Notes under the pieces: model-generated
Told to the model about the DNA's origin: nothing
Databases searched by the model: none
The model's input: only the letters and a program-made list of their open reading frames with translations
Part shown: in pieces, positions 12,188 through 64,000 of the stretch
Position numbering within the stretch: position 1 is the stretch's first letter
Layout: each line of letters starts with the position of its first letter
Translations under genes and position numbers: made by a program
Assembly: GCA_018417955.1 (NCBI GenBank)
Contig: JACTVC010000021.1
Span: 1 to 64,000 of the forward strand
Direction: 5' to 3'
Origin: Laccaria trichodermophora
Taxonomy: Eukaryota; Basidiomycota; Agaricomycetes; Agaricales; Hydnangiaceae
Length of the DNA stretch: 64,000 bases

Positions 12188-12821
12188 TGAAGTGGGGAAT
12201 TCTTTATTGATATTGACAATGCTGAGAAAGAATTTGCTGCCACAGCTCTATATATACTCAAGACAGAGCTTTGCTTTAATATATGTCAACTGCCCACATC
12301 ATGTAAAGCAAGTGATGATCCTGAAGTCAATATACTGGAACAAGCCAAAGAAAAAATCTCATCTGAGCTACTTTATGCATGCTGTTTTTTTTCAGCCCAT
12401 GTTTTGTGTGTCCCATGCAGTGGTCAGCTTCTGGAAGATGTTCATTACTTTTTGGATTATAAATTTCTCTATTGGTTAGAAGTGTTGAGCATTACAAGCA
12501 AAGTCAGTATTGCACCAGGAATTTTGTCCTCATTATTGGGCTGGGAAAAGGTGCAGTGATTGCATGAATACAACTATAAACTATCTAATATACTTGCAGA
12601 TGGATAAAGATATGAAAATGTTTATTGAAGATGCTATGAAATTTGTGACAACTTTCTTCCAACCTATATCTCAAAGTGCACCTCACATATATCTGTCAGC
12701 CTTGCCAATGTCACCAAGTGACTCTCTGATTGTGAAAAAGTATTCTCACCACTTTACTAGAGGAGTCTCTTTTAAAAAGGGAAAGCAAATTTTATTGCCA
12801 TCTATAAATAGTATCTTGCAA

Positions 12822-15800: not shown

Positions 15801-16130
15801 TGGGTCACCTCTGTTGCATTCTCACCTGATGGAAAGTACATTGTTTCAGGATCAGATGACAAAACTATCAGAATGTGGGATGCACAGACAGGAAAGCCTG
15901 TCTCAGATCCATTTGAAGGCCACACAGATTGGGTCACCTCTGTTGCATTCTCACCTGATGGAAAGTACATTGTTTCAGGATCAGATGACAAAACTATCAG
16001 AATGTGGGATGCACAGACAGGAAAGCCTGTCTCAGATCCATTTGAAGGTCACACAGATTGGGTCAACTCTCTTGCATTCTCACCTGATGGAAAGTACATT
16101 GCTTCAGGGTCATATGATGATACTAAAATT
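12822..16130 (+). repeat. Tandem WD40 array: 25 full 129-bp (43-aa) units plus a partial 26th
   Basis: Units begin GHT and carry the core FSPDGKYIVSGS and KTIRMWDAQTGKPVSDPFE. Spacing is exactly 129 bp from 12822 to 16047. Nearly all differences fall at unit positions 4, 5, 7-10 and 23, e.g. GHT-HS, HW, DC or DW, and GS followed by Y, R, D, G or W. Those residues are expected near loops of the propeller face. Units 2-9 (12951-13982) and 10-17 (13983-15014) have the same order of variants and form a recent block duplication of eight units. The last unit loses the W-D end. Such uniformity with point variability is typical of concerted evolution in HET-E/HNWD-type proteins. Confidence 0.92.
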
Positions 16131-16420
16131 AGGAATCATGACTCCAATATAAATAGTCTGTTATCATTTGTTTTATCCCTTTATTGCATTTCTCATATTT
16201 TCTCTTAGCATTTTCTATTCTCAATCAATCCAATCTTACATCATCTGGCTGGCTCTGCACACATACAGGAGATTTGTTGCTCTGGATACCACCTTGGTAC
16301 CAATCAGGTCTTCAATGGCAACCTAGAAACCCACTTGTCATTGCAACATATACCACAAAGCTTTCTTTTGATGAATTTGCATTTGGCAAAGACTGGCATT
16401 TATGCAAAATTGGAGCCTGA

Positions 16421-30553: not shown

Positions 30554-31930
30554 TCAGGATAAGCCATCAACTGCTGCATGAGATTGGGCAGGAACGTGGT
30601 GCATTTCATAGTCAAAAAGAGCGATATAAGAAATCCAGCAGGTCATGGGCACGTTTGGAAGGTCTGGCTGCTTCACCATTTCGATCAGAAACTTTGCATT
30701 GATGTCGATCCGAAAATGGATTCCCCAGATCCTGTGTTGGAGGTCTTTGACTGCTCTAAAAACGCCATAAAGTTCTAGTTTAGGTTGAGAGTAACGCAAT
30801 TCAGTGTCGTTGAAAGTGCAGGAACCAAATATCACCAGATGTTTCTCTTTTTCCACCATCTGGAATAGAATCCATCCTGTTCCATTTTGACAAGAGTCAA
30901 CTGCAACGATGACAAGTCCATGTTCTGAAGCCCGCGGTAGTGAATCTTGACGTGAAAGAAGTTTTGCTGCTTCGTAATCTAACTTAACGAGGACAGGTGC
31001 TGTCGAAACCAGACGTTTGAGCTTGTTCTGGGCATCTTCTGCTTCTTTTGAGAAGAAAAACTGTCGTTGGACTGCAGTTTTTGTGAGGAGCGTCAGTGGC
31101 TTAGCAATGAGGGAAAAACCGCATATCCATTTTCTCCCAACGCCTGCAGTCCCCAGAAACGAACAAACATCAGTAACACTCGTTAAAGGTCCCCAATTTA
31201 AAATCTTCGTGACCAAACCATGTTCGAGGTGCCAACCTTCTTTTGACACGATAGTCCTGACAATGTGCAGACGCGGAGTAGCAAGGACCATCTTGCTTCC
31301 AGAAGCCGTGATTCCTGCTTGAATAAAGCGCATCAGAAATCTGTCAAGAATCACAGCATACTCGTAAACGAAGTGTTGGATCCCTGGAGCAATCTCTGCG
31401 TTGTTGTAAGTAGAAGTGGGACCTTTCAAACCAACGTCGTCCACAAACACATTGCCGTTCTTGGGAATTTCGTCTTGTAAGGTATGGGTCATGCATCATT
31501 GGAATTCTGGGAGTGAATTTGTGGCTCCTTGAGGAAGTACGCAAGAACGAAGGGGGTCTATCAAGCAAGAAAAAGTAGTCAGAGGCCTCGAGACTACTGA
31601 GAGTTTTTGCCCATCATATCCTGAAAACAAGTCGGCGAGACCATAGATGACATGTCCCACAAAACTCTCTGCGAAGTCGTCAGTTCTGGGAGGTAAACTT
31701 GCGTCATGCACTGTAACTCGGTTGAGCTCTTGGACGTCAGCAACTAAACAGATACCGCCTTTGGGTTTTTCAACGGCAAAAATTCTCAAGTGGTAGGAAG
31801 CGGTCAAATACTCATATTTCCCCACAGCTTTTTGATCAAGGATCATTTGCTGTACCATGTCTTCGATAGATTTTGGTATACGTATAGGCGCCTGGACCCA
31901 CGGAATATGTTCGATTACTGGGATTTCATA
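30554..31930 (-). pseudogene. Reverse transcriptase-RNase H relic
   Basis: The N-terminal RT segment YHLRIFAVEKPKGGICLVAD and ADLFSGYDG lie at 31496-31858. The catalytic motif appears as FVDDV near 31445, and the thumb/connection and RNase H regions (VAVDSCQNGTGWILF, LELYGVFRAV) run to 30554. A stop between the two frames at about 31494 and others upstream break it. Family assignment to Ty3/gypsy is from the motif order. Confidence 0.75.
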
Positions 31931-32841
31931 GTCAGGAAAATATTTGTCAGAAAACGTTCCTCATTCGGAGTCGTCAAAGGCCAAGGCTTGTTGTCGTGTT
32001 TGCAAAACAAAAACCAAAAGATCAATTTCTCGAGGTTGAAGAAACCCCTTAGGTACACTTGTCAAAATTTTCTGTAAACGTTTGAGTGAAAGGCGCTTTG
32101 ATGGAACAAAATCTCAGAGAAACGGCGGATCTATGGGGAGAAGAGGCAGTGTAGGTATATCAACAGGGTGAAAAACTTGCCCAGCTGGATCTGGCATGTA
32201 ACTTGGTACAGGTCAGACTTTCTTGTCCACAGTTTTGTATTTAGTGCGCTTTTGAAGAGGGTTTGATTCATATATGAGAGTGCATTGAGTCCAAGGGGTG
32301 AGAAGCAGTCTAGAAGATCTAGGAGAGCAATGAGCGATGTTCTGTAAAAGTAAATTGTAAGCTTGTGGGGGTTCTAAATCAGGAACGAAGAAAGGAAAGT
32401 CAAAGCCATAAGTCCCCATCAACGCATGAAGCGAGCGCCCGAGGGTTGGAACAGACGCGTCCTGGTCAAGTCCAGGCTCAGGATACGCACCTGTCCTCAT
32501 TTTCCCACATCGATGTCTTCAACTTCTTCAATCCTCGGCCCATGATTCAGGTTGAGGGTAGCTGTGTTACGAGGAGCACCAGGAGTGCAAAGAGGAATAA
32601 GAATAGATGGGCCTTGATTACAACAATCATATTTGCCACCATCTCCATCTTGCCAAATCCTCATGTTCATCGTTCCTTGGCAGGTGTACTGGATCGATGC
32701 AGAGTACCATTGCAACCAGGGCTGGCCTAGTATAATTTCTTGTTTGCTGGTTCCTTCCCTGCTGATGAATATGTGATGGTCGAAGCGCCTTCCTGAAATC
32801 TTGATTTCGGTGTCTCGGATGCATCCGCCAAGTGGGACAGG

Positions 32842-35097
32842 TCATCCGTTTATCCCTTTGAGGGACCAACGTGTTCCATCAAGGTCAATAGCCAGACTCG
32901 TCCTATCATAGAATTCTTTAGCCATCAAATTTAACTCAGACCCTGTATCAATCATGAATATCACATCCAGTCCTGCAAACTTTCCTTTGAATCGTCCTGT
33001 AACCATTGCAAAAAGTGGCTGCAGTGTAGGATGGATTTTGACCACAGACGCGTAGCGTATCATAATATCTTCTTTTGACTTGGAAGACTCGTCAAACTCA
33101 AGTCCTAGACGCGACTCGACAAAACTAGAGTTAGTGAAGGATTCGGCAGCAGGAAGAGAGTGATAAAAGTCCTCATCGTCAGATTCATAACCCCCTGCCA
33201 GCTTGGATACTTCGTTCTCTTCTTCTGACCATTCGGTGTCTTCAAGCGCTTCAACAACGCTTGCTACAACGGGCTTGGATGTGTATTCACGACGCGTCTT
33301 CGTCATGTTGCTGACTGATTTTTGTAGGAATGCCGAAATCGCCAGAAGTTCGCCGAGCTCTAGATGAACAAGTGTCTTATTTACTTTTTCCTGAACGATC
33401 TTGTCTAAATCATACATCTCCTGAATGTCTGACATGAAATGATAAGACGGATTCGACTTAGCTTTTGAATTTGCATCCTTCATATCCACATCCTTGGTCT
33501 TTGGCGCAGCACGATGATTCTTGAACGTGTCTTCCGTGTTGACGGCAGGAGGTTGTACATTGAAAGCCAGAGGGGTTGATTGTACAGTGGGGGTTCGCAA
33601 GTTGAACGCTTGAGGATTTGACTGAATGGGGACGTCCGCTGGCCTAAGGTTACTGAGTGTAGGAATTGGAGGCTTATTTTGATTCTCTTTCAGTTTAAGA
33701 GTGGACTTAGCTTCGTTTTGTCTCCTCTTAGGGCGTTTGATGGGGTCGAAGCGTGTTTCTTTATCTTTTTGAGAGTGGGTAACGGCTAGAGTTGTTGAAG
33801 GGGATGCGCACCACTCAGGGACAACTGAAGAAGGGGAAGTGTTAAAAATATCAGAAGATAAGACTTCCTGACTGTCAAAAAGCAGACCAGCGTAGTTGGC
33901 CATATGGGGAGGTAGGTCTCTAGAAGCCTCCCAGGCCTTACCTGTTAAATGGCTTGAGGCGGCATGTTGCTCTTGTAAGACTTTAGCAACTCCGCTGTCA
34001 CTTCCAAATGTGCGAGGGAGTTCTGAACCATCAGAACGCGCTAACCTACCAAGAGGAGTGTAAGCCACCAAGCCTTCCTTGATACATACCTCTACTTCTG
34101 GGCAGAACTTTAGGCTGAGTCTGTGTGTGGTCTTGTCGCAAAAGAAACACCTAGCTTCTCTCATAATTTGCTGGTTAGTTAGGTTTGCATTTGGAGTTAT
34201 ATTAGCTGAACGTAGAAACTCAGTGTGAGCGAGCCTCAGATCCTCCATCTGTTTTGCAAGGCGGTCTACTGGACCAAGGTTGATAGGTTCGACGATTGGC
34301 GTAGCCAGGACCGTCTTTTCGAATGTGACCTTCTTTGAAGGATTTTTCTTCTTCTTCTTTGTCAAGACTACTTTGTCAATATCCTTGTTGGAGTTGCTCG
34401 AGCTAGAGTCAGAGTCAGAATCCAGGTCGATACTCACATCCGTCGTCTTTGCATCTAAGTCTTTGTCGTCAAACTCCACTCTTAGCAAGCCGAGGAGTGT
34501 CGCTGTTGTCAGAGGTGAAGAAGTTTTGAGGTTGGCTGGCGGTATACGCTTCTTGATGCGAGAACGCAAAGATGTCGGAATCCCTCTATAGAAACAAAGG
34601 TTAACGTCATTAGCGAGCATTTTATTAGGAGTCAATTCTGCGGATAAGGCAGTAAAATCCTGGTAGTATTTGTCGACATCCCTTCGGGAAGTAATACTCC
34701 CCGACTCTCCATGCTTTGAGCACCACAGACGCAACCGATTGGGAGAGTTTTGAGGAATGGAATCGTTTGACCCATAAAGGTCGTCGAGGAGTAATCTTGT
34801 TGAAACCCAGTCGTCTCCGGATAGCAACGCGGATGCGCCGATAACCATTCGGACTTTTGTATGGCAGTATCTAAGGACATAAGCCGGCAACTGAGAGTGC
34901 GGAACGTGGGTGCTATTGGCATGCTGTTCGAGCGAATCTAAAAAGTCAGAAACTCGTTTTCCTCTAAACTTGGGAGCCCCAGGCGCTCCTGGAGTGGGCA
35001 TAGGGACACCTAGCATAGCATTTAGACTATTTTCAGAAGAAGAGGAAGCAGATGGATGGATGGGAGATGAATCTGGTTGATCATCAAGAGGAATCAT
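32842..35097 (-). CDS. Gag-protease ORF of the Ty3/gypsy element (751 codons, nonsense-terminated)
   Basis: The ORF starts MIPLDDQPDSSPIHPSAS and contains a capsid-like gag region (GKRVSDFLDSLEQHA) followed by a Cys/His segment ARCFFCDKTTHRLSLKFCPE, similar to a zinc knuckle. A retropepsin active site VIFMIDTGSELN lies close to the 3' end. The TGA at 32842-32844 cuts the protease: the same frame continues with PVPLGGCIRDTEIKI and the second protease signature ILGQPWL. The stop is therefore a mutation, not the natural end. The middle (about residues 400-560) is low complexity. Confidence 0.75.
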   Translation of the reverse strand: MIPLDDQPDSSPIHPSASSSSENSLNAMLGVPMPTPGAPGAPKFRGKRVSDFLDSLEQHANSTHVPHSQLPAYVLRYCHTKVRMVIGASALLSGDDWVSTRLLLDDLYGSNDSIPQNSPNRLRLWCSKHGESGSITSRRDVDKYYQDFTALSAELTPNKMLANDVNLCFYRGIPTSLRSRIKKRIPPANLKTSSPLTTATLLGLLRVEFDDKDLDAKTTDVSIDLDSDSDSSSSNSNKDIDKVVLTKKKKKNPSKKVTFEKTVLATPIVEPINLGPVDRLAKQMEDLRLAHTEFLRSANITPNANLTNQQIMREARCFFCDKTTHRLSLKFCPEVEVCIKEGLVAYTPLGRLARSDGSELPRTFGSDSGVAKVLQEQHAASSHLTGKAWEASRDLPPHMANYAGLLFDSQEVLSSDIFNTSPSSVVPEWCASPSTTLAVTHSQKDKETRFDPIKRPKRRQNEAKSTLKLKENQNKPPIPTLSNLRPADVPIQSNPQAFNLRTPTVQSTPLAFNVQPPAVNTEDTFKNHRAAPKTKDVDMKDANSKAKSNPSYHFMSDIQEMYDLDKIVQEKVNKTLVHLELGELLAISAFLQKSVSNMTKTRREYTSKPVVASVVEALEDTEWSEEENEVSKLAGGYESDDEDFYHSLPAAESFTNSSFVESRLGLEFDESSKSKEDIMIRYASVVKIHPTLQPLFAMVTGRFKGKFAGLDVIFMIDTGSELNLMAKEFYDRTSLAIDLDGTRWSLKGING

Positions 35098-47340: not shown

Positions 47341-47395
47341 TGTTTTTCTTGTTTTGATGCAGAAGATATTTTTTAGTAGATGCTCTTTACTTCAT

Positions 47396-49710
47396 ATGGC
47401 TTGTTCAACTGTCTTGGGGTTAATCTCAGTGATCTATACTCTGAGAAATTCTGTGCTGATCACCTGGATGCTGCTGTTTTTGACATTGCTACCTGGAGTT
47501 TCAGCTTCATCTGAGCGAGACTTTCCTGACATCACATTTAAAGTCTTCAATGACTTTGTTAAAGACAACTTCAGCTCCAAAGTTACTCTTTCAACTGTTC
47601 TCTTGGTTCTGTTCTCATTGACAAATAATCCTGAACTTCTAAGTTTACATGCTAAGCAACAGAATCCTACTGGGAAAGGAGAAAATGCAGTCCATATTAG
47701 TGCATGGATGAAAGCACTGGTCCGTGCACTCATTGAGAGGCTTGGAGGAAAGTCTGATACCCTTTTGAAAAAAACACAAAGCAATGCTATGGATCTCAAG
47801 ATTGTTGCAATTGGAGATAAACTTGACCAGCTTTCAAAACTTCTAGACCTTTATCCATATGATGATAAAGGAAAATTTCAAGGAAAGCTGAAGCCTACTT
47901 CTCATGATGAATTCAAGCCAGTTATGCTCATCTGTCCTAATTCTGCATTTTGTGTAACCAAATCATGCAAGCGTCGATCTTTGATGCAGCATAGTCCTCC
48001 CAGAGATATCCCAACTGTTACTTTGATCAAGGGAAATGAAATCTACAAAAATGCTTATGTGTTAACTGGCACCTGTTCATCTTGCAAAACATTGTACTTG
48101 GCTGATCGTGAACGCTCATCTGACAATAACAACATAGTTAGCCGGATTTATCTAAATTCAGCTCGCTATCTTAAAGTTGGTCAAAATTTATGGGTTGATC
48201 GTGTCTTCTCTGCAGCTGTGTTGAATGGAATATACAGCTTTCATGCATCATCAGCTGCATATACAGAGTTCTGGAATAACAGCTATTCAGTGAATAGTAC
48301 AGAAAAATTGATAACACGACGACAGATTTGGCAAGCATTTGTCCAAGAGTCAATACGTTCACTTGGGGCTGCTTCAGAGTTGGACTTGGTGCTTCCAGAT
48401 GGCCTTCCCATAAATGATGTCACCAAATCAGCTTTTGAATTACTAGGAGATAAGGGACATATTCAGGCTGCTCATACACATGAATGTCCTGAATGTACTC
48501 AACCCTATAAGGCTACTGCAGATAGTCTGCTAACTGGTGAAGATCCAGCTGCTTTAGTTGGTGAGGATGAAAACAGACTTGTACCCCCACTTGTTGGAGA
48601 AGGGGCTGATCTAGCTGCTGTAGATGCTGCTCAAGCACGACTTAATGCTCAACAGCAAAATCAGGCTGCTTCAGATATGAATATTGATGAAAATGCTGCA
48701 CCTGTCAAAATGATTGTGATGGATGGCATTGTTATGGGGCCAACACACTGTGCATATGATGGTTGTACTTCTGAGTTGGCAAATGCACGTGGTGGAGTGT
48801 TTTGTCAATTACATGACTTACAATATGGGGCAAAATGTCGTATCCGTGGTTGTACATCAATTAAAAAATCTGGCACACAAGCTTGTAATGAACATCAGGG
48901 TGAATGGAAAAAGAATACATTTAACAGAAGCAAACAGAGTTTAGCTGGAGTAAAAAGAATGCTTCAGAGGCCTGCAGAAAATATGCCTTGGCAACCATCT
49001 AATGAAAGACCTGCACAGCCTCATGACCAACCAACCCCTGAGACACAAGCAAAACATTATTTCAACCCATCTCGATTTTATTGTGTAGAGACCATATGTG
49101 CCCCATGTGGTGTTGTTATTGCATGGACTAAATTTGACAAGGCAGAATCTCCAACAAATATTTTGAACTGGTTAGAAACTGTCTATCCAACAGAGGAATC
49201 TAGACCAGACTACATTTGCATTGATAAAGCATGCCTAGTGCTTCGAACTGCTATTGCAAATGGGTCCTGGGAGCGGGTCTGGAAAAAAACTACTCGTTTC
49301 ATTGTCGATGCCTACCATTATATTAATCACCGCACAACTGATTATATCTGTCGTAAATGGTGTAATCCTGCACCACTCAATGGTTCTGCACCTAATCTGG
49401 TTATATCTGCTTTTGATAAAAATGGTCGACCATATTTGAAAAGAGCCTTCAATACTCAGGTACAGTACTCAAGTTTGGAACATATATGTATAACTCATTG
49501 ATTTTGTAGGCTTGTGAACAATTAAATGCATGGCTTGGTGGATTTGATTCCATCTTAAAGAGAATGACACAAGGAAATTTTAACTGGTTTCTTCATACTA
49601 TGCTTTTCTATCACACAAGAAATGTGATTAGAAAGCAGGAGTTAGCAAAAGACTCAACTGAAGAAGAAGATAATGAAATGGGTGAGGAAACAGTAGATGA
49701 CTCTCTTTAG
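47396..49710 (+). CDS. KDZ (Kyakuja-Dileera-Zisupton) transposase
   Basis: One long exon and one 50-bp intron (49460-49509), ending EETVDDSL at 49710. A cysteine cluster ICPNSAFCVTKSC...TGTCSSCKTLY resembles the CxC5-type domain, and HCAYDGCTSEL...RGCTSIKKSGTQACNEH the CxC6-type domain, both associated with KDZ transposases. The catalytic region contains YICIDKACLVLRTA, RFIVDAYHYINHRT and, after the intron, ACEQLNAWLGGFD, consistent with a DDE-like core. The start is uncertain: Met codons at 47396 and 47469 are in frame, and sequence just upstream may be an intron. No internal stop. In mushrooms KDZ elements are linked to DNA-modification enzymes, but none is encoded here. Confidence 0.85.
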
Positions 49711-50027
49711 GGTTATATGAACCAAATGTATGTACAGTATGAATAAAGTCACCTGATCTATTGATGTTATCTGATTAACTTATACTTGAGATCACATGAC
49801 TCATAGACAAAAGTAATAAGTCCATGGGAATTCCACACAGATTCCATAAGAATTCCATCTGGATTCCATAGGAATTCCATTTGGATTCCATAGGAATTCC
49901 ATTCAGATTCCATAAGGAATTTCCCTGGAATTTCCATGGAATTTCCATGGAATTCCACTGTGAATCCGCAAGAATTGTATATTCCTGCCATTCCTGCGGA
50001 TTCCAAGTGGAATTCCGACATTCCATG
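49711..50027. repeat. Right arm and subterminal repeats of the KDZ element
   Basis: After the stop the sequence becomes a run of GGAATTCCAT/GGATTCCATA repeats (about 49820-49970), matching those of the left arm, up to the right TIR at 50028. Confidence 0.65.
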
Positions 50028-50083
50028 GGAATCCGGCGGAATCCGCAGGAACTCATGGAGGAGGGTAAAGTACTGGCATTGGG

Positions 50084-53000
50084 GAAGAAGAAGGTTGAAT
50101 GGGATGATACATCCCCGTGGGATGAGAAATCAAGCGTCGAGCGCGGCAGAGACCTTGAGGAGGGCACAGAGCTCTCTTTCGGGTTTCAAACTCCATTCCA
50201 TACTAATAATAAATTCTTCGACACGTCGGGAAGCACCCCTCCGACCGCTTTCTTTTCCACCCCCAGCGATCTGTCGACACCAAATCCTAACTTGACACAA
50301 GACGTTACCATAGGATTGGCCACGCCATCCCGGACAATTTTCGGGGACAACGTCAGAGATCACAACGTGGCGTCAAACCAGCCAGGTAACGCCATGACAT
50401 TGTCGAAGCGCAACACAAACGAGAACGCTGAGAGCGTAAACACGCACATGTTCAACTCAACCAATCCATCAGGAAATGCCAACAATCCTTCCTCACCCAG
50501 AGGAGGGCCTTCTCGTCCTAGTGACTCTCCAAACGCAGGAGGAGGATATCCTCCTATCAGTAACGGGGGTCCCCCCGGAGGAGGAGGCAATGGCGGTAGT
50601 GGTGGAGGGAGTGGTGGCGGCCACGGAGGAGGAGGAAATCCTCCCAGCCATCCCACGCCCAACAACTATAACTACTCTTTCCCAGGAAGTCATCCACCTG
50701 CAGGAGGGGGCGGAAATCCTGGAGGAGGAGGAGGAGGAGACAGAGGACCTCCTGGCTCCGCTAATCAATTCGGCCCCCCAGCACCCTATGGTAATATGCC
50801 AGCTACCATGAAGACCGAACTCAAAGTCGAGCAGCTACCGGAATGGGACGGTAACCACTGGACCACTATAGAATACTTCTGGCAAGTACAACAGCTCGCG
50901 TATCTAGGGGGATGGATCCCCAAAGCGTTGGGTTACTGGCTTTGGTTCCGCCTGAAAGACAGCTCGCCGGTTAAGAAATGGTTTGTTACCTTACCAGTTA
51001 CCCACCAAACCTACATGCACTCCCACTACCTTAAGTTTTTGAAAGGTATCAAGGACGGTTATCTAGGTCACCGATGGCAAATCAAGATGAATAATTACTA
51101 TAACTCCCAGACATTCCGTGAAAGGCACCATGAGCACGAATCGCCTTCAGATTTCGTCCTGAGACGGATCATATATACGAGGATGCTCCTCACAGTCAAC
51201 TCAGGAGGACCGTTAGAAGTCTTCTATATTATGAGAAAAGCTCCCATCAGCTGGGGACCTATCTTACTAGTAAGTAGCATCAGAGACTCGAGCGAGCTAT
51301 ATTCGCGTGTCACCGAACACGAAGAAGCTCTTTTGGAAGCCTATCGGGTATCGAAAGGTGGCCAGAGCTCGTCCATCGATCACATAGCGTCACAACTGAG
51401 GCAAATGGGATTTCGGCAAGATGATCAAAAACAACGACCCTACCCTCGCCGCGCGAACTTAACTGAATTTCCCACTGTCACAGAAGAGACCAGTTCTATT
51501 AATCAAGGAATGAGCACAGCAACATCTTTACACGACTTCAACTCCAGCCAACATATTCTTCGCGAAGCGTACCAAGTGCTCAGGCAGAGGCAGCGCCCAC
51601 CGCCCAAAGGAGGGTATCCATTTCCAAAAAACGACCATGTCACTACAAAGATGGGAAAGATGCCTCCTTCGCCTTGTAAAGTGTGCGGGAGTGCGAACCA
51701 TTGGGACAAAGAATGCCCTGATTGGAACGTGTATTTTGAAAGAGCTAAATGTTCGGCAAACGTCACTGAGATTTGGTCCGAAAATGAGTCAGAAAAAGCG
51801 TACGCAACAGCTTACTCGGTTCTCTTGAATGAGAAGCTAGCCGAGATAGTCGTAGATGACATGCTCCAAACTGAGTCCTCGTTGCAGCAGCAGGATTTTA
51901 AAGAGGCATCCCTCCCGGCGCAAGTAAATGCGCTAGGAGCGAGTAAGTCCGGTGACGCGGAATCTCCAAAGATTCAGAGACGCGTGTTGATCGAGGAAAT
52001 TGACGATGAAGATTGGATTGCGCAAAAAGCCAAACCAAAATCACCCAAACACCTGTTGGAAGAAGTGGAATCAGACGATGAAACCCTGCAGACTCACCTA
52101 CAGACGGAGGGTATAGAGCCTAACTTCAGATCACCTCCAGCGGAGGAGGTGACCGACCAACCTTTCCAAACCGCGATGCCTACATTATCAGACGCATCCC
52201 CTCCCATTCTCGAAACCGACGAACACCCATCGGTGAAGGAGGCTAGTGGTCCCCCTACTACCGACGTTCGAATCAAATTGAAGAAAAGACGGTTCGCGCC
52301 AGAGGGAGCTTCGGCTACTGGAGTCTCCGTAGTAGCAGTTCAAGGTTGGGTAGGATCGACGAGAAACAACCCAATCGACCTTAGACTGGACTCCTGCGCA
52401 GATGTGACGTTAATCTCGCAGGAATATTTGGAATCCCTAAAGGACAAGCCCTCATCTAGAAAGGGAATGAAACTGAACTTATGGCAGCTTACCGACAAAG
52501 ACGCTACGATCCAGAGTTATGTTCGTATACCAATCATTATGAAATCGTCAGACGGAATTCTCTTAGAGACCGAAGCGGAGGCGTATGTCGTCCCCAACAT
52601 GACCGTACCTATATTGTTAGGGGAAGATTACCATATAAATTACGAACTTACCGTAGTGCACAAGATCGACTTCCGCTCCATAGTAAACTTTGCCGGGGTC
52701 TCACATTCAGTACCAGCCAGGGGCGTCAGTCGCACAAGAGATTTCGACCGCATGAGGCAGAGCGCTTGCGTCAACGCGAGTTTCGTGAAAGCAAAGCTAC
52801 ACAAGAGAAACAAAGCAAAGAAAGCCAGGCAGAAGAAAAAATTTGGTCTCGAACAAAAAACCGTGCGGGCAGCAGAGGATTATCGCCTCAAGCCGGACGA
52901 GTGCAGACGAATTAAAGTGGAAGGCCACCTAGGAGAGGATAAAACTTGGCTGGTTGAAAAGAACGTGTTAGCCTGCGCAAACGATTCGCCGTTTGTAGTG

Positions 53001-53390
53001 CCGAACGTACTTATATCAGCTTCAGACCCATGGGTGCCAGTCTCTAACCCCTCCCCTCACCCAAAACTGATCAGGAAAGGGGATATCGTTGGATATCTAT
53101 CCAACCCACAGGAGTTCTTTGACGCGCCTACAACCCAGGAAGGGCTCGATAAGTTTTCTCGAACAGCACAAGCCTTAGCCACTATTATTGCCCTATCATC
53201 GGAAGAATTATCCTCGGAAAGTGCATTTGCAGGGGAAAAGGAGGAAACAAACGACCCTTCCAAGGAGGAGGAGGTTATCGAGGAGAAACCAGAGGAACCA
53301 GAGTTATTTGGTCCAAAGACTGCCGAGCTACCTGACCTAACGGAATACCCTTCCCAGTACATGGAGGAATACCTCCAGCCTAGGCTGTAA
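50084..53390 (+). CDS. Gag-protease ORF, 3' portion of the interrupted retroelement
   Basis: The frame continues from the target duplication with KKKVEWDDTSPW. Order: Gly/Pro-rich low-complexity region (about 50450-50790), a gag-like segment (LPEWDGNHWTTIEYFWQVQQ, then PSDFVLRRIIYTRMLL), a CCHC zinc knuckle PCKVCGSANHWDKECP (near 51677-51724), an acidic linker, and a retropepsin-like site IDLRLDSCADVTLIS (near 52375-52419) with the second signature MTVPILLGEDYHI. The active site reads DSCA where D-S/T-G-A is normal, so catalysis may be lost or the call is imperfect. The frame ends at 53390; no reverse transcriptase follows. The bacterial-type start at 49881 is inside the KDZ right arm and is spurious. 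Confidence 0.75.
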
Positions 53391-55836: not shown

Positions 55837-55962
55837 GGTTTGTTAGACCCCCGAAACATTTGTGACGAAGCAGAACAAACCCAATTATGTTCAGCTGGCC
55901 CTTTTTCTTCGGCTCAGGACCCCCAATCAGCACCGACAAGTGCATGCCGATCGACTCCCCGA
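55837..55962. other. Short spacer between the minus-strand gene and the candidate LTR
   Basis: Nothing recognised. It would hold the promoter of the 54415-55836 gene. Confidence 0.3.
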
Positions 55963-56092
55963 TGTAACGGTGTGCTAGTATAAGCTACTCTTGCGTGACC
56001 TAGGATCATCGTATTTACTTCTGTTTACTTCTCACTATATAGTGTCGCTTACAAAATAAATAACACACTTTGCAACCACATCATATATTACA
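55963..56092 (+). repeat. Candidate short LTR (130 bp)
   Basis: It begins TGTAACGG and ends TATATTACA, so the termini form the inverted pair TGTAA/TTACA found in many fungal LTRs. It includes a TATA-like CACTATATAGTG (56033-56044) and an AATAAA signal at 56055-56060. A TGG-initiated possible primer-binding site follows two bases after it. The partner LTR would be beyond the window, so this is an inference from one copy. Confidence 0.5.
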
Positions 56093-59000
56093 TGTGGACG
56101 GAGTCACCCCTTTTCTGTACGGCTAGGCAGCCTTATGCCTCCCCTCCGGGATACAAGAGTCCTGCGCCGGGTGACCGCGCCCCAGTTCCTGGGTCACAGG
56201 ATAAACTACACGTGGTACCGCTTTGCGGCACCACGTTACGAACTCTTTCACGCGTACCACGAATATTCTCCGCCGCCATCTCGCACTCGCGCCTTCGTCA
56301 AGAAGTCCCGAATCGCCCTACGGTTTCACAATGGTGGGGGCACCGCGGACTTCATCAAGATGAAGTCCCAGAGTGCAAAGACTCGGAGAAACTACATAAG
56401 GCAAGTCTGATTGACAGATCCTGTCAACTCATGACACCTTCCAGAATTCCCAACTCCCAAGTAAACCTAAACCCTAACACAGGCGAGAAAACCGTTGTCC
56501 ACGCCTCGCATGATGCTCCCACATCCTCGTTAGCGCGAATATCCGCTGCTTTCGAGGGCAACAACTCTGCCTCTCCCTTCCCCACATTAGCGTGGATACC
56601 CGCTGCGTTCGAGGAACATGACTCGGTTACGACAGACAACGGCTCACAGCCTCCAAAAACCCTAACGACACCAAAGAAGCAACCTCTCCCACCCGACACG
56701 AGCTATGCCCACTGCAGTTGTGCGAGGAACTGCCCTCGCCAGGTCCTTGAAAGCCAAACGATCGTACCCCTAGAGAAATTTCCATTCCGTCAATGCCCTA
56801 TCGACTACACAAACCCTCGATCGTGCAAAGACACCAACCCAGTCAGCCAATCCACTCTGGAGACCTCGTTAGCGCGAATAATCGCTGCTTCTGAGGGCAA
56901 TGATTCAGCTATGACAGACGACGCCTCTTCACTTCCCCTATCCATGTTAGCACGTACATCTGTAGCTTTCGAAGATAACACCTTAGCCATGACAGACGTC
57001 GACCCTACACCGTCTCTACCCACGTTAGCGCGTACATCCGCTGCTTCCGAGGGTAACCACCCAAATCCGATGGATGACCTCTTCGTGCCTCTTACATCCA
57101 ACATTTTGGAGGGTGATGAAGTAGCTATGAGGAACTATGACTCGGTGCCTCCCATGCTCGCCACAGCATTCTTATCGACGGCTGTATCACTGGAGGAATT
57201 CCCTTCCCGTCATCGCCCTAATCACCAATTGCCACCATTTAAACCAGGCGTCTGCGGGCAGATCACTTCGTTGTCCTATTCGACGAAATGGACAATCTAC
57301 CCTTCCGATGGCGACCGCCATAAGATCGAATTCCGCAATACCAACCGTTCTACTAGTCACGAAATCGTAGCGTCAATAAGGTCTAGGGAAAGGGGGAAGG
57401 GAATGTCGATGACAGAAGAGCCTGGTATTGAAGTCGATTCTCCCTCTTGTAGTAACCCCATACTCTCGAAAGCGCGAACACCCGCTGCTTTCAAGAGCAA
57501 TAGTTTGACTACGATGGACAACGACTATACTCTTTCCATACCCATGTTAGCGCATATGCCCGCTGCTTTCGGGGATAACGACCCAACCATAATACCCTTT
57601 AAGGAATCCTCACTCTATCAATACCCGAGCATTGACCCAGCCAACCAATTCATCCCGGAAAGCTCGTTAGCGCGAAACCCGGCAGCCTCCAAGGACGAGA
57701 CGACAGACTATCAAACTACCCTAGCCATTCCTAGACCCTTGGTAGCGCGACTGCCCGCAGCTTATGAGGGTAATCACCCAGTTACAAAGGACGACCACCC
57801 CATACCCTCCATACCTGCGATAGCGCGACTACCCATTGCTTTCGAGAGTAATCTCTCTGTTACAATGGATGACAACTTTACGGCTTCCTGCCCCGTGATA
57901 GCGCGATTGCTCGCTGCTCTCGAGAGCGACAATCTGACTAGGATAAATGACGGCTCTTCAACCTCCATATCTACAATAACACGAACATTCGCCATTTCCG
58001 AGGGTAACGATGTGGCTACGACAGACCGTGGTTCCAGCTCTTCTGTAACCATGGCGTCATCAGAGCGACTGGAGAGTAGTCCTCCAAATTCTCTGGAACT
58101 ATCAAGCATGGAAGACATCACTAATGGATGCTCAATGAATCCGGCTCTCCCCATCAACTCAAGCTCCGCCCGTTGCGATTACTGGTCCTGCTGCCGCCTG
58201 CAAAGCCCTGTTAACAAGAATTTACCCGTGCTGGCGACCCAAGTAATGGTGGCGTCGAAGGAATTTCCACCCTGTCAACGCCCTCATCACCAATCGCCTC
58301 CTGTTAAACCTGGCGGCCACCAAACCAGTGTGATTACCCTCTTGGATCAAGCCGCCTCTAAAAGGGCGAACTCATTACCTGTGCTCATAGAGAAAGGTGC
58401 GAACAAAGTGTTCGCCACTCGTAAGGGCGCAGACAACCTGAGCAACAGCGTCAGTGTCTCATACTATCCAGCTAATCATGATTTCGTGATGCTGTCAATG
58501 CCTAGAAGAGAAAAGAGAAAGGGAGCAGCAATGAAAGAGGAACATGTTTCTGATGCCGCTTACCTCTGGGACAATAGTCCTTCATCTCCATCTGACCATA
58601 CACTTTTGGAATGGCGCTCGCTGTTCAAGCTCGGTCAGGCAGATCTATCCTCGAATTCCGCAGCTGTCCAATACGTGAATATGTTGTCTGTGCTCAGTAA
58701 AGACACGACTAAGATTCTCGCTATTCTGGAGAGCGCGAACAACTCTAAAATGATTGCTCCCCGCAAGATGACGCGAAGGCCCTGGTCCACCAATGTGAAC
58801 CTACTCATTATCCTCCATGCAGCATCCCAATTTAAGATTAGGTTCAACAAAAATCAGTCGTCTTTACGGAGCCGAACTGATAAAAAGGACGAGCTGGAAA
58901 TAACGTCGGTAGAACACAAGAGCACAACTGAATCTCATGCGGCTCCACAGGATTCTAAACTCACTTCCCCTTTCAATAACAATTCTATGTGCATATCCCA

Positions 59001-62000
59001 GCCCGAGTCGACGAGTTCCCACGTCCTAGACGATATGGGAATGTGCCCGAACCCCGTCGCTCCGCTAAGCATGAATTACTTACCTGTCCTCGGCAAGGGT
59101 GCAATTAATCTACTTGCTGCTTTCACTAGCGCAGTCAATCATAGTCCCAAACCGACCACCTCGAGTAAGATGAATCAAAGGTCTTCGGCTATGGGCGCGA
59201 CGCAGCTCGCTGCCTTGAGACGAAGTCCATGGAGACTAACGTTAGACCTTGCTCGAACAACCATGAAGAACGATAACAATCAGAAGAAGTTCACGGAATT
59301 GAGATTCAAGGGGGATGAAAACCAGATGCTCCCCTTTTGTCAGACCAGAGCGAGAAATGAGCCTTACAACACTCGACGAAAGCATGAGAGTTCATTCAAG
59401 TTTAGTGCGGTCCTCGAGGACAATGAGGAGGTCAAGGATCTATTCGACTTGGCGAATCCTACTACCGCTCCAGTGAAACACTCTCCTGGACTCTTTGGCT
59501 CCACCATGAATGATAATGTTCTGTTTTCATCAAGCTTGTTGAACGAATCACTCCTAAATCAAATGAAAGACGAATGTGATCGGTCAAGAAATACTATTGA
59601 GTTAGTATACGTAGCTTTGGAGGTACACTGTTGGGAACACTTGGACGTAACTAAACGAAATTCAGCCAGCCAAGACATCAGTTTGGAGATCCTAGCCAGA
59701 TGTATCAACCTGATCTTCTCTTATGAAGTCGAACATAACCAACTGCTAGAACCTTCCCAAGTAGTTGCGACCATTCATGTAGTCCTACGAGCCCTAGAAG
59801 AATTCGTTCCGGATCATCAGATTACCTCTTCGCAGTCGCTGACTACTCAAACAAGTCGAGCCAGAACTCCCCCACTCAACCTAGTGTTACGAAATTATCC
59901 GGCTAAGACCTCCAAACGCTTAGTACAGGAAACCAACACACTTTCATGGATGCATGAAGTGAATTCCGATCAGAGGACCACCGGCTTCCACGAACCGACA
60001 AGAGTACTATGGCTATTCATCCCTGGTAGCAGAACTATTAGGAGACAAGTTGGGAAGCTCTTCGCCAAACTGGAGTACTCCGATGAAATACTGAAGGACT
60101 TGCAAATCCTGAGAAAGCTTACTACTCACCAACCATGCCGAACACAGAATTCGAACAAGGGAGCCGAATTAGACACTACTAGAAAATCGCCAACCCGCTC
60201 CGCGAAACTGAATTTTACACGAAGTTTTACTTTGAGTAAAGGACAAGGCGTCAGGAGGGCTCCAACACAGTGGCCGGAAGTAACGATGGCAAAAGAATCT
60301 GTCGTGAGGAGGCTTCCGGTGTGGACGGCAACCTCGAATGACAGCTCGAGGACGGTAGCTCCTCGTGACAATGATAATGAGCTCAGGGTGCCTGCTGCGT
60401 ACAGAACGCGCATATCAAGCCCTAAGACATGCAGTCGCTCTTATCAGTTTGAAAGTGATCTATCGCGCATCCTACTTGCTGCGAAGATAGTCCCAAGGGT
60501 AACAAAAGAAGCGAACCTTATTCGTGAAACCAAAACCAATACTAGAGCTTGGCGAGCTGGGGGGATAAAAGCTAGGAACCTTAAATCTAGTCTCAATCGG
60601 CCGTTCGAAGATAGCTTCTTACACGATAACCCCAAGTGTTCCCCTCGAAATCACCCTCGTTTTCGGAGTACTCTTCCGAAGGCTCCTAATGCACCGTTAA
60701 ATTGGGGCCCCAAGGAGGTAGAAGTAGTCGATACCCCATGCTCAGAGAAGTGGGCGGAGGCGGAGCCCTATATTCCTGTTTATGAAGAAGACGAGGTAGC
60801 GAAAACGTCTGCCCCTCTTTCGTCGAGAGAGGACTTTGAAACTGCATGGGATCGAAACGTCCTCAGTTACCCTACCAGATACGGCAGAAAGTTAATAGGA
60901 GGGTCCATGGGGCGCGAGTTATCCGCAGCCTCGGTCCAGAATATCCATAGAGAATTTGTAATTCAGATCATACCTGCCAAGATGCGAACCGTCGACTACG
61001 AGAAGGCAGTAAGCTCTACAAAGCCGAATAAAATTAGCAAAAAGGAATACGTAAGAGATAGAGCCTTGGACGACTCCTTTGATCAACCCTATCCCTTGCA
61101 AAACGTGGCGGTTCGCGTGACTTTCAATGGTATAGGCAAAAGGATAGTAAAAAAAACTGTTGTAACCCATACTATTCCATCCCATCGATGCGTAAGAGCG
61201 GTCAAGGTTATCAGATTCCTGCATGCCATCATTGTAATGGACGACGACTCACCCCTAGACGAAGAAATTCTCGACAACATAATTCAAGGTTTAGCGGCCA
61301 TGAAGAATCTAATGGCGGCTACTCCTAAGTATGACGTCGGCTTTGAAAGCGAACATAACGAATCTCGAGAACCTAAGACGTCGGTGGGTTCAAGAGATCT
61401 GTTAAGTGATGACAAGAGTGGGACAATAGATCTTGAACCCAGAACTCCTGAGGAGTATCGAGAAGGGTTATCGGAGAGGTTACGCAGCAATGCTACAACT
61501 TTCGGAGTTAGCCGTCACATAGGGTACATAGACGCGCGAGTCCTCATACTGCTGCTCCTCAACGCCCAACCAATCCCTGAACCAAAATGCGGTGCCTCAC
61601 TCGCAAGAGAAGAAATCATAGATCGACAGCGTGGGACTTGGATTGGAAGAGGAGTAATCAGACCATCCACCCACTCCGAGTCAGGGAAATGCTTAGAGCC
61701 TAGCACAAAACCTGTGCTCGATGAACTCTCTATGTCTCGACAGTCGGAGATCACGCAGGTGTTATTGAGGGCACGGACAGCGCCACCTTCCTTGGACCAT
61801 TCAGCTGACACTCAGTTGGCTTTGCGTTACCCGTCAAGACTACAAGTTCTGACCCCGTTTCTATTGCTCGTCGCATTCGGATTTCGCAAAAACCGGCTTG
61901 AAATCAAATCATTAAATGAACGGGGGGCTACTCTGGATGAGGATTCTGTCCGACTAATCACCTACTGGAGCAGAACGGCGTTGAGATCGACTGAATGCAA

Positions 62001-64000
62001 TTACGACGCCATAGGTCATGAAACCCTTGCCATGAAAAGGAATCTCGTGGAATACGCTGCCCTACTAGTCGGGGCGCGAGCTCACGAACACGCCAATCGT
62101 CGAGAGGCAGCGTGGGGGGCAGTGATTACCGCTCACCCAGACCTCAGGATTGTACGCCGAGCAAGTCGGGTCTGCTCTATTGATAATCCTCTATCATGGC
62201 TAATACGAAGCAACTATCAAATAGCAACGTGGAGAGTGGTGCCTAGGATTGTACGCCAAGCAGAACAAAAAGAAGTCGCCGTACCAACTAACCCCGCTGC
62301 CCTAGCTGCAAATAGGGCGCGAGTTCACGGGAGCCCCAGACGTCAAATTGAAGTACGGGGGGCAACACCTGTCATTCACCACAATGTTAGGCCTGTACGT
62401 CGAGCTGTGGCGGGACGAGAGGCTGTATACCGAAGCATTGCTCAAGGATTAGATGATTTAAAGCTTGTCGAAACAACGGTCGAAGCTCATACTCACCTCA
62501 ATCCTGAGACTACACCTGACACAAGATGTCCAACCGCACAGGCTTCGGCACATTTGCACTTGGACCGTCACGATCCTGCAGTAAAAAACGGATGGAAGTA
62601 TCAATATACGACCATATTGCCTGAATTCGACTCGGACGGGATTGCTCCGTTAGAGTACGATACAACGGCGGAGAACATTGCTCGAAACCCAGCGTACTCA
62701 ATCGGTACCCGCATTTCTGATGAATCTCAGGCCAATTCGATCACGGCGTCTAAACCTACGTTCCGTGCCATGCAACAGGAAACCATTCACGAACCGAGTA
62801 GTCATACGAGTTGCAAGCTCGCAGCTGAAGCGAAGCGCGAAGCCTGGATAAGAACCATGAGTGAGAGTCTCAGTGGAAGTTCGAGCTCCGGCGAGACAAA
62901 GGACGATACTGTCGTAAATGATCTCGAAGATATTCCAACGCGCTCCAAGGTCGACTCTAGGACTCACCAGATAGGAGTCAGACCTTATGAATTTCCGCGG
63001 GACGAGGATTATGCAAGACAATGGCAACAGCGCACCCCAGTAGACCTGAAAATCCACAAGGAGATTACGAAAGGCAATAGGACGAATGAACCTTGCCCCA
63101 CTCCTCATTATACTAGGGAGTTATTCTATGAGAAACTCTCAAACCCCACGAGCTATCATCATGGAGGACAAAATGAGCCTCCATATCTCATCTACGATGG
63201 ATGGGAAATATGTCCATATGTACCCGAGTTAGAAGTTGACTATATATTATGTTATATGCTTAGATCTCAGGCTTCATATGGGAGAACTCCCTCTGGATCT
63301 CGCCGCTTTATAGCGCGACTACAAAGGTTGTTTTTCTGTGTGCTCGAGTCAGTAGTCAACTCTATGGCACGACGGAAACATGGATCTCCATATGAGAATA
63401 CACACGCAGGTCCCCGCCGCTTCACAGCGCGATCACAAGAATGGTTATCCCAGCCATTCAATAGGAAGAATGTTGAAACTTGCACGCCTACTTTTGAGGC
63501 TCAGTGGAAGATTAACTCTGATCCCTCTGATCTAACGGGCGTGTTACCGTTCATGCGTAGTATTCCATCGCAGACCTTCCCATTAGTAGTAATGAAAGCC
63601 ATGTTGACGGAGCTACCAGCCGCAGGTCCCAGGGAGCGAAAAGAATTCGCCAGACCTTCTATTGAAGGAGTTGTTAACGTATTTGGATTACCTGGAACTG
63701 TCGCTTCAAGCCAAGACAATCTTGCGCTTGCATCAACAAACCACCCGCTAACGGAGGGACAAGTGGAAATTTGCAATACGACTACGGAGCAGACGTTTCG
63801 CGTTTACGATTCCCCTGCTGAGAAGAGCGAGTCGAATGGGCTCCGAGCCCTGATTTATGCGTACTACCACGGCTTACAGTCTTCCACCAAATGGTTTCGG
63901 AATCATACCCTATCGACGAGATGTAATCGAATAACATCCACTGTGAGCGTGACAATGTCAAAGAACAAACCTCCACACAGACCCTCTCTGCTTAGTCAAC
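56092..64000 (+). CDS. Giant ORF of unknown function, open to the window edge (>=2,636 codons)
   Basis: From ATG 56092 I read every codon to 64000 without meeting a stop; an internal ATG at 56431 is an alternative start. No domain is recognisable: no protease DT/SG, RT YxDD, RNase H or integrase motif, and no transmembrane segment is obvious. Residues ~145-645 hold about twelve imperfect copies of LARxPAAxEGN (e.g. SLARISAAFEGN, PTLARTSAASEGN, PLVARLPAAYEGN). Other repeats: EEFPSRHRPNHQLPP and KEFPPCQRPHHQSPP, and SGSRRFIARLQ and AGPRRFTARSQ near the visible end. It is rich in Ser, Arg, Asn, Thr and Pro. It starts at the end of a candidate LTR, so it may be the coding region of a large retroelement, but a host gene is not excluded. 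Confidence 0.85.
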   Translation, partial: MWTESPLFCTARQPYASPPGYKSPAPGDRAPVPGSQDKLHVVPLCGTTLRTLSRVPRIFSAAISHSRLRQEVPNRPTVSQWWGHRGLHQDEVPECKDSEKLHKASLIDRSCQLMTPSRIPNSQVNLNPNTGEKTVVHASHDAPTSSLARISAAFEGNNSASPFPTLAWIPAAFEEHDSVTTDNGSQPPKTLTTPKKQPLPPDTSYAHCSCARNCPRQVLESQTIVPLEKFPFRQCPIDYTNPRSCKDTNPVSQSTLETSLARIIAASEGNDSAMTDDASSLPLSMLARTSVAFEDNTLAMTDVDPTPSLPTLARTSAASEGNHPNPMDDLFVPLTSNILEGDEVAMRNYDSVPPMLATAFLSTAVSLEEFPSRHRPNHQLPPFKPGVCGQITSLSYSTKWTIYPSDGDRHKIEFRNTNRSTSHEIVASIRSRERGKGMSMTEEPGIEVDSPSCSNPILSKARTPAAFKSNSLTTMDNDYTLSIPMLAHMPAAFGDNDPTIIPFKESSLYQYPSIDPANQFIPESSLARNPAASKDETTDYQTTLAIPRPLVARLPAAYEGNHPVTKDDHPIPSIPAIARLPIAFESNLSVTMDDNFTASCPVIARLLAALESDNLTRINDGSSTSISTITRTFAISEGNDVATTDRGSSSSVTMASSERLESSPPNSLELSSMEDITNGCSMNPALPINSSSARCDYWSCCRLQSPVNKNLPVLATQVMVASKEFPPCQRPHHQSPPVKPGGHQTSVITLLDQAASKRANSLPVLIEKGANKVFATRKGADNLSNSVSVSYYPANHDFVMLSMPRREKRKGAAMKEEHVSDAAYLWDNSPSSPSDHTLLEWRSLFKLGQADLSSNSAAVQYVNMLSVLSKDTTKILAILESANNSKMIAPRKMTRRPWSTNVNLLIILHAASQFKIRFNKNQSSLRSRTDKKDELEITSVEHKSTTESHAAPQDSKLTSPFNNNSMCISQPESTSSHVLDDMGMCPNPVAPLSMNYLPVLGKGAINLLAAFTSAVNHSPKPTTSSKMNQRSSAMGATQLAALRRSPWRLTLDLARTTMKNDNNQKKFTELRFKGDENQMLPFCQTRARNEPYNTRRKHESSFKFSAVLEDNEEVKDLFDLANPTTAPVKHSPGLFGSTMNDNVLFSSSLLNESLLNQMKDECDRSRNTIELVYVALEVHCWEHLDVTKRNSASQDISLEILARCINLIFSYEVEHNQLLEPSQVVATIHVVLRALEEFVPDHQITSSQSLTTQTSRARTPPLNLVLRNYPAKTSKRLVQETNTLSWMHEVNSDQRTTGFHEPTRVLWLFIPGSRTIRRQVGKLFAKLEYSDEILKDLQILRKLTTHQPCRTQNSNKGAELDTTRKSPTRSAKLNFTRSFTLSKGQGVRRAPTQWPEVTMAKESVVRRLPVWTATSNDSSRTVAPRDNDNELRVPAAYRTRISSPKTCSRSYQFESDLSRILLAAKIVPRVTKEANLIRETKTNTRAWRAGGIKARNLKSSLNRPFEDSFLHDNPKCSPRNHPRFRSTLPKAPNAPLNWGPKEVEVVDTPCSEKWAEAEPYIPVYEEDEVAKTSAPLSSREDFETAWDRNVLSYPTRYGRKLIGGSMGRELSAASVQNIHREFVIQIIPAKMRTVDYEKAVSSTKPNKISKKEYVRDRALDDSFDQPYPLQNVAVRVTFNGIGKRIVKKTVVTHTIPSHRCVRAVKVIRFLHAIIVMDDDSPLDEEILDNIIQGLAAMKNLMAATPKYDVGFESEHNESREPKTSVGSRDLLSDDKSGTIDLEPRTPEEYREGLSERLRSNATTFGVSRHIGYIDARVLILLLLNAQPIPEPKCGASLAREEIIDRQRGTWIGRGVIRPSTHSESGKCLEPSTKPVLDELSMSRQSEITQVLLRARTAPPSLDHSADTQLALRYPSRLQVLTPFLLLVAFGFRKNRLEIKSLNERGATLDEDSVRLITYWSRTALRSTECNYDAIGHETLAMKRNLVEYAALLVGARAHEHANRREAAWGAVITAHPDLRIVRRASRVCSIDNPLSWLIRSNYQIATWRVVPRIVRQAEQKEVAVPTNPAALAANRARVHGSPRRQIEVRGATPVIHHNVRPVRRAVAGREAVYRSIAQGLDDLKLVETTVEAHTHLNPETTPDTRCPTAQASAHLHLDRHDPAVKNGWKYQYTTILPEFDSDGIAPLEYDTTAENIARNPAYSIGTRISDESQANSITASKPTFRAMQQETIHEPSSHTSCKLAAEAKREAWIRTMSESLSGSSSSGETKDDTVVNDLEDIPTRSKVDSRTHQIGVRPYEFPRDEDYARQWQQRTPVDLKIHKEITKGNRTNEPCPTPHYTRELFYEKLSNPTSYHHGGQNEPPYLIYDGWEICPYVPELEVDYILCYMLRSQASYGRTPSGSRRFIARLQRLFFCVLESVVNSMARRKHGSPYENTHAGPRRFTARSQEWLSQPFNRKNVETCTPTFEAQWKINSDPSDLTGVLPFMRSIPSQTFPLVVMKAMLTELPAAGPRERKEFARPSIEGVVNVFGLPGTVASSQDNLALASTNHPLTEGQVEICNTTTEQTFRVYDSPAEKSESNGLRALIYAYYHGLQSSTKWFRNHTLSTRCNRITSTVSVTMSKNKPPHRPSLLSQ
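56095..56110 (+). other. Candidate primer-binding site after the short LTR
   Basis: TGGACGGAGTCACCCC begins with TGG two bases after the LTR end, as needed to pair with a tRNA CCA tail. It also lies inside the first codons of the giant ORF. The tRNA is not identified. Confidence 0.4.

Follow-up and report, generated by a model that had tools for sequence, protein, structure and literature searches.

A giant open reading frame, apparently independent of its product, in Ty3/Gypsy-like retroelements of Laccaria trichodermophora that lack reverse transcriptase

We describe a long terminal repeat (LTR) retroelement at the end of a 64,000-nucleotide stretch of Laccaria trichodermophora DNA (contig JACTVC010000021.1, positions 1 to 64,000; hereafter the window, C14:1-64000 in a genome of 59 Mb and 77 contigs) that carries one uninterrupted open reading frame (ORF) along most of its length. 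The element is quite likely a non-autonomous Ty3/Gypsy LTR retrotransposon in which gag-pol has been fused to a second frame, ORF2, the enzymatic core has been lost and the whole has been kept as one unbroken translatable frame. We also think it fairly likely that it belongs to a radiation, within one genome, of families without reverse transcriptase (RT) whose frames of more than 3,000 codons code for nothing particular. The open frame itself would be the cis-acting part under selection, with full-length ribosome transit sustaining the genomic RNA, the amino acids drifting and the ancestral stop region between the ORFs removed. Our comparisons suggest that being translated matters to the element and that the protein does not. 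Coordinates above 64000 lie beyond the window in the same numbering; elements are given single letters, and contigs C with a number.

The element and its open frame

The plus-strand frame that begins at the ATG at 56092 is free of stops to the end of the window (56092..64000, 2,636 codons), as an earlier note made from the letters of this DNA had stated, and the second ATG that it considered, at 56431, lies in the same frame. Extension along the contig, which the note had recommended, located the stop at 65974-65976, giving 3,294 codons from ATG 56092; the stop-to-stop form begins at 55999. The stop lies 519 bp 5' of the 3' LTR, and the frame takes up 95% of the stretch from the ATG to that LTR. 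Such a length had been judged beyond chance, and rightly so: the other five frames over the 10.9-kb element hold 157-222 stops each, with no open stretch longer than 140 codons, which excludes a chance origin.

The feature is an LTR retrotransposon, with identical TG...CA direct LTRs and target-site duplications of a fixed 5 bp. The window copy spans 10,901 bp on the plus strand (55963-66863, ends set by alignment with three other copies) between the duplication CCCGA at 55958..55962 and its second copy at 66864-66868, outside the window. Its 5' LTR (TGTAAC...TTTCACA, 368 bp, 55963..56330) is identical at 368/368 positions to the 3' LTR at 66496-66863; the LTR suspected earlier is real, and it is longer than had been supposed. 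A TATA-like CTATATAG at 56035..56042, about 50 bp 5' of the ATG, may act as a promoter. The giant frame starts within the LTR and reads through a predicted primer-binding site, TGGTGGGGGCACCGCGG (56332..56348, 17 nt), which lies inside the ORF 1 nt after the LTR and is shared with RT-bearing Gypsy elements. The LTR end together with this site occurs, at up to two mismatches, in 185 places in the genome; one 3'-end pattern search gave no matching tRNA end for the priming tRNA. Where the primer-binding site ends, at 56347-56368, stands a perfect 10-bp hairpin (GGACTTCATC AA GATGAAGTCC), which might serve as a signal for packaging or dimerisation.

Repeat comparison confirmed the dozen LARxPAAxEGN repeats of the earlier note as 12 dispersed copies of a 46-nt repeat (56525..58016, plus strand). 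All 12 are in one codon phase, with neighbours 57-444 bp apart, mostly 75-78 bp, and every spacing divisible by three. Two other repeat families had also been proposed; further families are present, and the number found was three, each with two copies.

A 1-kb probe from the ORF matched seven places in the same genome at 100% identity, namely the window element and six near-identical copies. Four copies were read; each has its own, different 5-bp target-site duplication, and the LTRs are identical within each copy. The window-family retroelement has therefore been mobile recently, and the earlier suggestion of a giant host protein is wrong because there are seven copies and the duplications differ in the four read. 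Length alone favors a host gene or a chance long frame, and we give that explanation next to no probability: it is refuted by the LTR and duplication structure, the element is present in several copies, and its other frames are full of stops. Relative to the window copy, the other three copies read carry one substitution, three substitutions (one of which creates a stop) and a 213-bp deletion equal to 71 codons. A survey of the seven gave a frame of at least 3,229 codons in five, a TGA in one and a split into two frames in one. The surveyed lengths seem to count through stops, as the C7 copy with the TGA was given 3,325 codons and actually splits into 556 and 2,768.

Descent from a gag-pol like that of RT-bearing relatives

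The earlier note had assigned the frame to no family and had considered a retroelement with an extraordinarily long unrecognised leading ORF. The LTRs, target-site duplications and copies bear out the retroelement; the frame is no leading ORF and its family is not unknown, since it matches, in order, gag-pol and ORF2 of RT-bearing elements of the same genome. These are Ty3/Gypsy chromodomain elements, termed C (C12:3356950-3368500), H (on C34) and K (on C76). Element C has a 2,956-amino-acid gag-pol frame that starts at the place matching the LTR start of the window ORF and likewise reads through the primer-binding site. It is followed by 126 bp with four further in-frame stops and then by an ORF2 of at least 796 codons. 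H, a sister of C (95-96% identical), has Pfam matches over the cut-off to RVT_1, RNase H, integrase zinc-binding, SH3 (SH3_Tf2-1) and chromo, with its integrase core below the cut-off.

Against the gag-pol of C, the window ORF has five leading matches, colinear at 27-47% identity, and four weaker ones at 24-29%; its residues 2718-3267 match ORF2 of C at 28%. Within the window, the stretch at 60796..61776 (plus strand) is 34% identical to the segment of the RT-bearing polyprotein bounded by the protease site and early RT. It is followed at 61888..64000 by an apparent RNase H/integrase remnant with catalytic residues partly lost (identity of 47% in one short block of RNase H and of 27% along a longer part that continues to about 64218). 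The stops between gag-pol and ORF2 of C do not interrupt the frame of the window element or those of its relatives B, E and F (see below), all of which continue into ORF2-like sequence. Locally frameshifted remnants were absent from the window and B ORFs, and the off-frame matches of E fall only in its 3' LTR or around the ATG at the start of its frame.

Alignment to an RT-bearing element indicated what has been lost, with the zinc-knuckle, protease, RT, RNase H and integrase residues taken in their standard roles. Nothing in the window ORF corresponds to the zinc knuckle or the protease site, and the RT stretch holding MPFGL and YxDD is missing. In RNase H the glutamate block is kept and both flanking aspartate motifs are lost. 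The integrase part has other residues in place of CxxC and of the first two acidic positions and retains HAGPRRF and the final glutamate; the chromodomain core is not recognisable. The element thus lacks the set of gag, protease, RT, RNase H and integrase with catalytic residues that marks an autonomous Ty3/Gypsy element.

A profile match to a known large family would have told against the earlier note; neither the window ORF nor that of E has a Pfam domain over the cut-off, and the window ORF had no NCBIfam and no PDB match. A Pfam RNase H match in the window ORF at E = 0.13, below the cut-off, is explained as a remnant. Among 5.8 billion proteins, of which 7,059 were word-sharing candidates, the window ORF had no homologue at E <= 0.001. 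The RT-bearing pol had 865 among 7,992 scored, the best from a named species, Agrocybe pediades, covering 80% of the query at 64%; the lack of homologues therefore fits decay rather than missing fungal data. Given the colinear matches to C and its ORF2, with key motifs lost, the window ORF is a gag-pol descendant fused in frame with ORF2 and degenerated beyond Pfam recognition. The element carrying it is, on the same comparison, a putative non-autonomous derivative of a Ty3/Gypsy chromodomain element.

Exact matches to the primer site numbered 81 of the 185 places, and 150 RT matches were scored of 247 candidates. Within a range of 3.5-9 kb, 26 of the 81 sites had one of these scored RT matches downstream (observed distance 4.2-7.9 kb) and 55 had none. 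Two features of the RT-bearing elements were also observed. Their ORF2 (L032:3163-5550, at least 796 codons) is in the same frame as gag-pol, has no Pfam match and constitutes an unexplained second protein, and in the polyprotein (L031:167-6001) about 1,000 residues precede a weak, below-cut-off gag match.

Openness and amino-acid change in the RT-less families

Three RT-less families were compared: that of the window, B (C37) with D (C26), and E (C76) with F (C11). B, D and E were chosen from LTR matches before their frames were known and F by a DNA match reporting no frames; C24 was left out for stops inside its matches. The LTR list held 40 scored matches (at least 86%) of 186 candidates. 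Among these 40 were 19 LTR pairs, none of which encloses any of the 150 scored RT matches (those on contigs holding an LTR pair were used for this check), and the close LTR clade looks RT-less. B and D are 99.4% identical, with 3,149 and 3,151 stop-to-stop codons; E and F have 3,509 and 3,565. Frames of about 3,100-3,550 codons are therefore kept in all three families. Aligned across 1,653 positions in the pol and ORF2 portion, the window ORF is 28.6% identical to that of E. The DNA best conserved between families is the LTR, the stretch following it and the stretch preceding the 3' LTR. Near-identical copies whose LTRs differ by 5-6%, seen in the window-family copy G000:C43:16452-27351 and in the B/D pair, suggest LTR exchange between families during co-packaging.

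The RT-less frames show no measurable amino-acid constraint. Outside the LTR, E and F differ at 75 of 3,199 codons, 54 nonsynonymously and 21 synonymously (24/29/23 by codon position). This comparison between copies, recommended in the earlier note, falls near a neutral simulation of 95 substitutions forbidding only stops, which gave 66.5 nonsynonymous and 26.6 synonymous. When the LTR part is included, 66 nonsynonymous and 24 synonymous codons are counted among 3,309, and DNA-level alignment gave 34/43/27 per codon position; the counts outside the LTR are cleaner because the inclusive ones take in a few out-of-register codons before the ATG. An omega of 0.5 is rejected for E/F (P = 0.005 outside the LTR, 0.0006 with it). 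B and D have 12 nonsynonymous and 5 synonymous differences outside the LTR. Between families the differences are flat across codon positions (0.249/0.273/0.268 for window/B, 0.209/0.216/0.206 for window/E, 0.263/0.237/0.231 for B/E). The ratios of nonsynonymous to synonymous divergence (dN/dS) by NG86 are 0.56, 0.74 and 0.73, against means of 0.69-0.75 in the neutral-open simulation, and YN00 gave 0.89 and 1.02 for two pairs other than window/E. Fewer amino-acid changes than neutral, as expected of a product under selection, were not found in the RT-less frames.

The RT-bearing controls behave otherwise. C and H differ by 78/51/274 by codon position, with dN/dS of 0.11-0.16. C and K, at 78% nucleotide identity, differ by 0.112/0.064/0.463 per position, with dN/dS of 0.04-0.06 and saturated dS. 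At 78-79% nucleotide identity the RT-less pairs have 62-64% amino-acid identity, compared with 86% for C/K at 78%. In C/H, the weakest constraint lies in the first 418 aligned codons (dN/dS 0.34-0.47).

Despite this neutral amino-acid change, five of five RT-less elements read (that of the window and four chosen blind to frame) are open over more than 3,100 codons, a combination that the earlier note had not anticipated. In aligned blocks, the five other frames carry stop differences at 109/2,839 codon positions (window/B), 109/2,849 (window/E) and 84/2,224 (B/E). For the shared frame, 21.8, 21.9 and 16.9 would be expected over 567, 573 and 448 codons respectively, and 6.6 for E/F; none is seen, because the frames compared are open ones by definition. 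Across E/F, window/B, window/E and B/E, every one of the 23 blocks of matching DNA begins in the same codon frame, and small non-triplet gaps within blocks are offset nearby in several cases, depending on the alignment.

Several observations weigh against selection for openness alone. The stop tests compare frames open by definition, so that their weight depends on the choice of families having been made without regard to openness. Broken copies make up 2/7 of the window family, a B-family copy on C11 has a TGA, in the E family the frame in C6 measures 1,665 codons and the copy in C12 is interrupted, and relatives on C3, C23, C24 and C77 contain stops; such copies can be read as decay after insertion. 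The DNA blocks between families amount to 2.3-2.4 kb of 10.9 kb, LTRs included, when only the best-scoring DNA matches are taken as non-overlapping colinear blocks. The 62-64% amino-acid identity of the RT-less pairs is slightly above the simulated 60-61%, the window/B NG86 ratio of 0.56 is just under one of two simulated 95% ranges (0.58-0.90, 0.55-0.93), and over its first 1,000 codons the window ORF departs from random composition more than C does. The slight excess in identity leaves room for weak amino-acid constraint on the RT-less frames.

Such constraint would be expected if the frame encoded a functional, fast-evolving giant protein derived from gag-pol in which most substitutions are tolerated, such as a disordered protein acting in packaging or in trans-interference. 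We consider this improbable. The retention of 3,100-3,550 codons in three families and the between-family amino-acid identity slightly above simulation agree with it, as do the repeats, which hold LARxPAAxEGN and one codon phase and whose pairwise differences (0.411/0.345/0.407) are slightly lower at position 2. Flat codon-position differences, a nonsynonymous to synonymous ratio equal to that of the neutral-open simulation and the absence of Pfam domains over the cut-off from the window and E ORFs tell against it. Composition points both ways: the last third of the window ORF is nearer to random codons than C (Kullback-Leibler divergence 0.033 vs 0.099 bits), though the first third is the opposite (0.081 vs 0.060). 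A gag-pol that died recently and was copied in trans before stops could build up would require no selection for openness at all. A third-position excess between families, a sign of divergence while the protein was under selection, would contradict that account, and the opposite was measured. The youth of copies within a family, with their identical LTRs, and the several broken copies are in keeping with a recently dead gag-pol, which we nevertheless hold to be very improbable. The families are about 21% apart at the DNA level in alignable coding blocks and more elsewhere (the window/E identity given above is an example), the ORF would hold about 59 stops in a simulation with 0.2 substitutions per site, and all five RT-less elements read are open, four of them chosen before their frames were known.

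If openness is selected, it might serve translation-coupled packaging or nuclear export and not escape from RNA decay, to which we assign a small but real chance. The best-conserved DNA lies where cis signals would be expected, and LTR exchange between families suggests co-packaging, but packaging would need translation near its signal and not across 9.9 kb.

A possible role for translation and comparison with known systems

We favor selection on full-length translation as such. Transcription would start in the LTR, and ribosomes would begin at the ATG in the LTR and finish some 0.5 kb short of the 3' LTR. The copying proteins would be supplied in trans by RT-bearing elements with which the window element shares the primer-binding site and LTR end. 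Selection would see full-length ribosome transit, and the protein would be a by-product of translation. The most likely reason is that an early stop would leave a long untranslated tail, exposing the RNA to nonsense-mediated decay or small-RNA surveillance that would destroy it before packaging. Removal of RNAs with long untranslated tails by RNA surveillance has been described (PMC6277124).

Open frames are usually taken as proof of a selected protein; in this mobile element, which multiplies by way of an RNA, preservation seems to extend to a frame of over 3,000 codons and not to its protein. If this is true, nature has provided replicated evidence that the genomes of transposons can be shaped by surveillance of untranslated RNA, and the question whether non-autonomous retroelements have to be translated in order to move becomes testable. 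The element is also a warning for annotation, as such frames will be called giant orphan genes. In a literature search with most subscription papers outside it, none of the titles and abstracts seen described an LTR element under selection for openness and nothing else, which is weak evidence of novelty.

Other features of the window were noted. An NPHP3_N-type ATPase ORF (NACHT below the cut-off) followed by a 1,232-codon WD40 frame (26 matched stretches) at 10994-16205 forms a fungal NLR-like gene with repeat expansion. On the minus strand, an RNase H-like ORF and a 751-codon DUF4100 ORF at 30554-35097 are likely another Gypsy element. An ORF at 47354-49498 has cysteine clusters of the KDZ transposase-associated types CxC5 and CxC6, and a 1,169-codon frame at 49881-53390, just upstream of the retroelement, had no Pfam match at E 0.1. 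The NLR-like and KDZ-associated genes, together with the relatives of the transposon, point to an agaric host.

LARDs are large RT-less LTR elements with non-coding interiors. The window element is likewise large and RT-less, but its interior is a single 3,294-codon frame, so that it is no LARD. With the RT-bearing Gypsy elements C, H and K it shares the primer-binding site, the LTR end TTTCACA and the order of gag-pol and ORF2, and in C, too, the ORF starts before the primer-binding site. Unlike it, these elements keep RT (H also RNase H and chromo over the cut-off) with dN/dS of 0.04-0.16, and gag-pol and ORF2 are separate in C.

Some defective-interfering RNAs of coronaviruses benefit from a long ORF even when its chimeric product is non-functional, according to earlier work (de Groot 1992, Van der Most 1995, cited in PMC8255065); that is an experimental case in an RNA virus, and ours concerns a genomic LTR retroelement over long divergence. 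The reverse ORF of an ambigrammatic narnavirus is described as needed for persistence without being conserved in sequence, and the study proposes that translation as such may be important (PMC8316113). That frame is antisense in an RNA virus, whereas the window frame is sense in a retrotransposon that has lost its RT. By analogy, we infer that these two precedents and that of RNA surveillance may extend to the window element.

Among LTR retrotransposons, non-autonomous RLC_Angela sub-families of wheat are about the size of the autonomous partner from which they derive, and their coding sequence is reported to contain numerous frameshifts and in-frame stops (PMC9744471). The window element similarly derives from an autonomous-type element of similar size, but its frame is open. 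Athila of Arabidopsis includes pol-less LTR families, some with open frames, that are thought to be mobile in trans and to recombine between families, and these frames are reported to be under purifying selection (PMC2410132). The window families resemble Athila in being RT-less LTR families with open frames and differ from it in that no purifying selection was measured in them.

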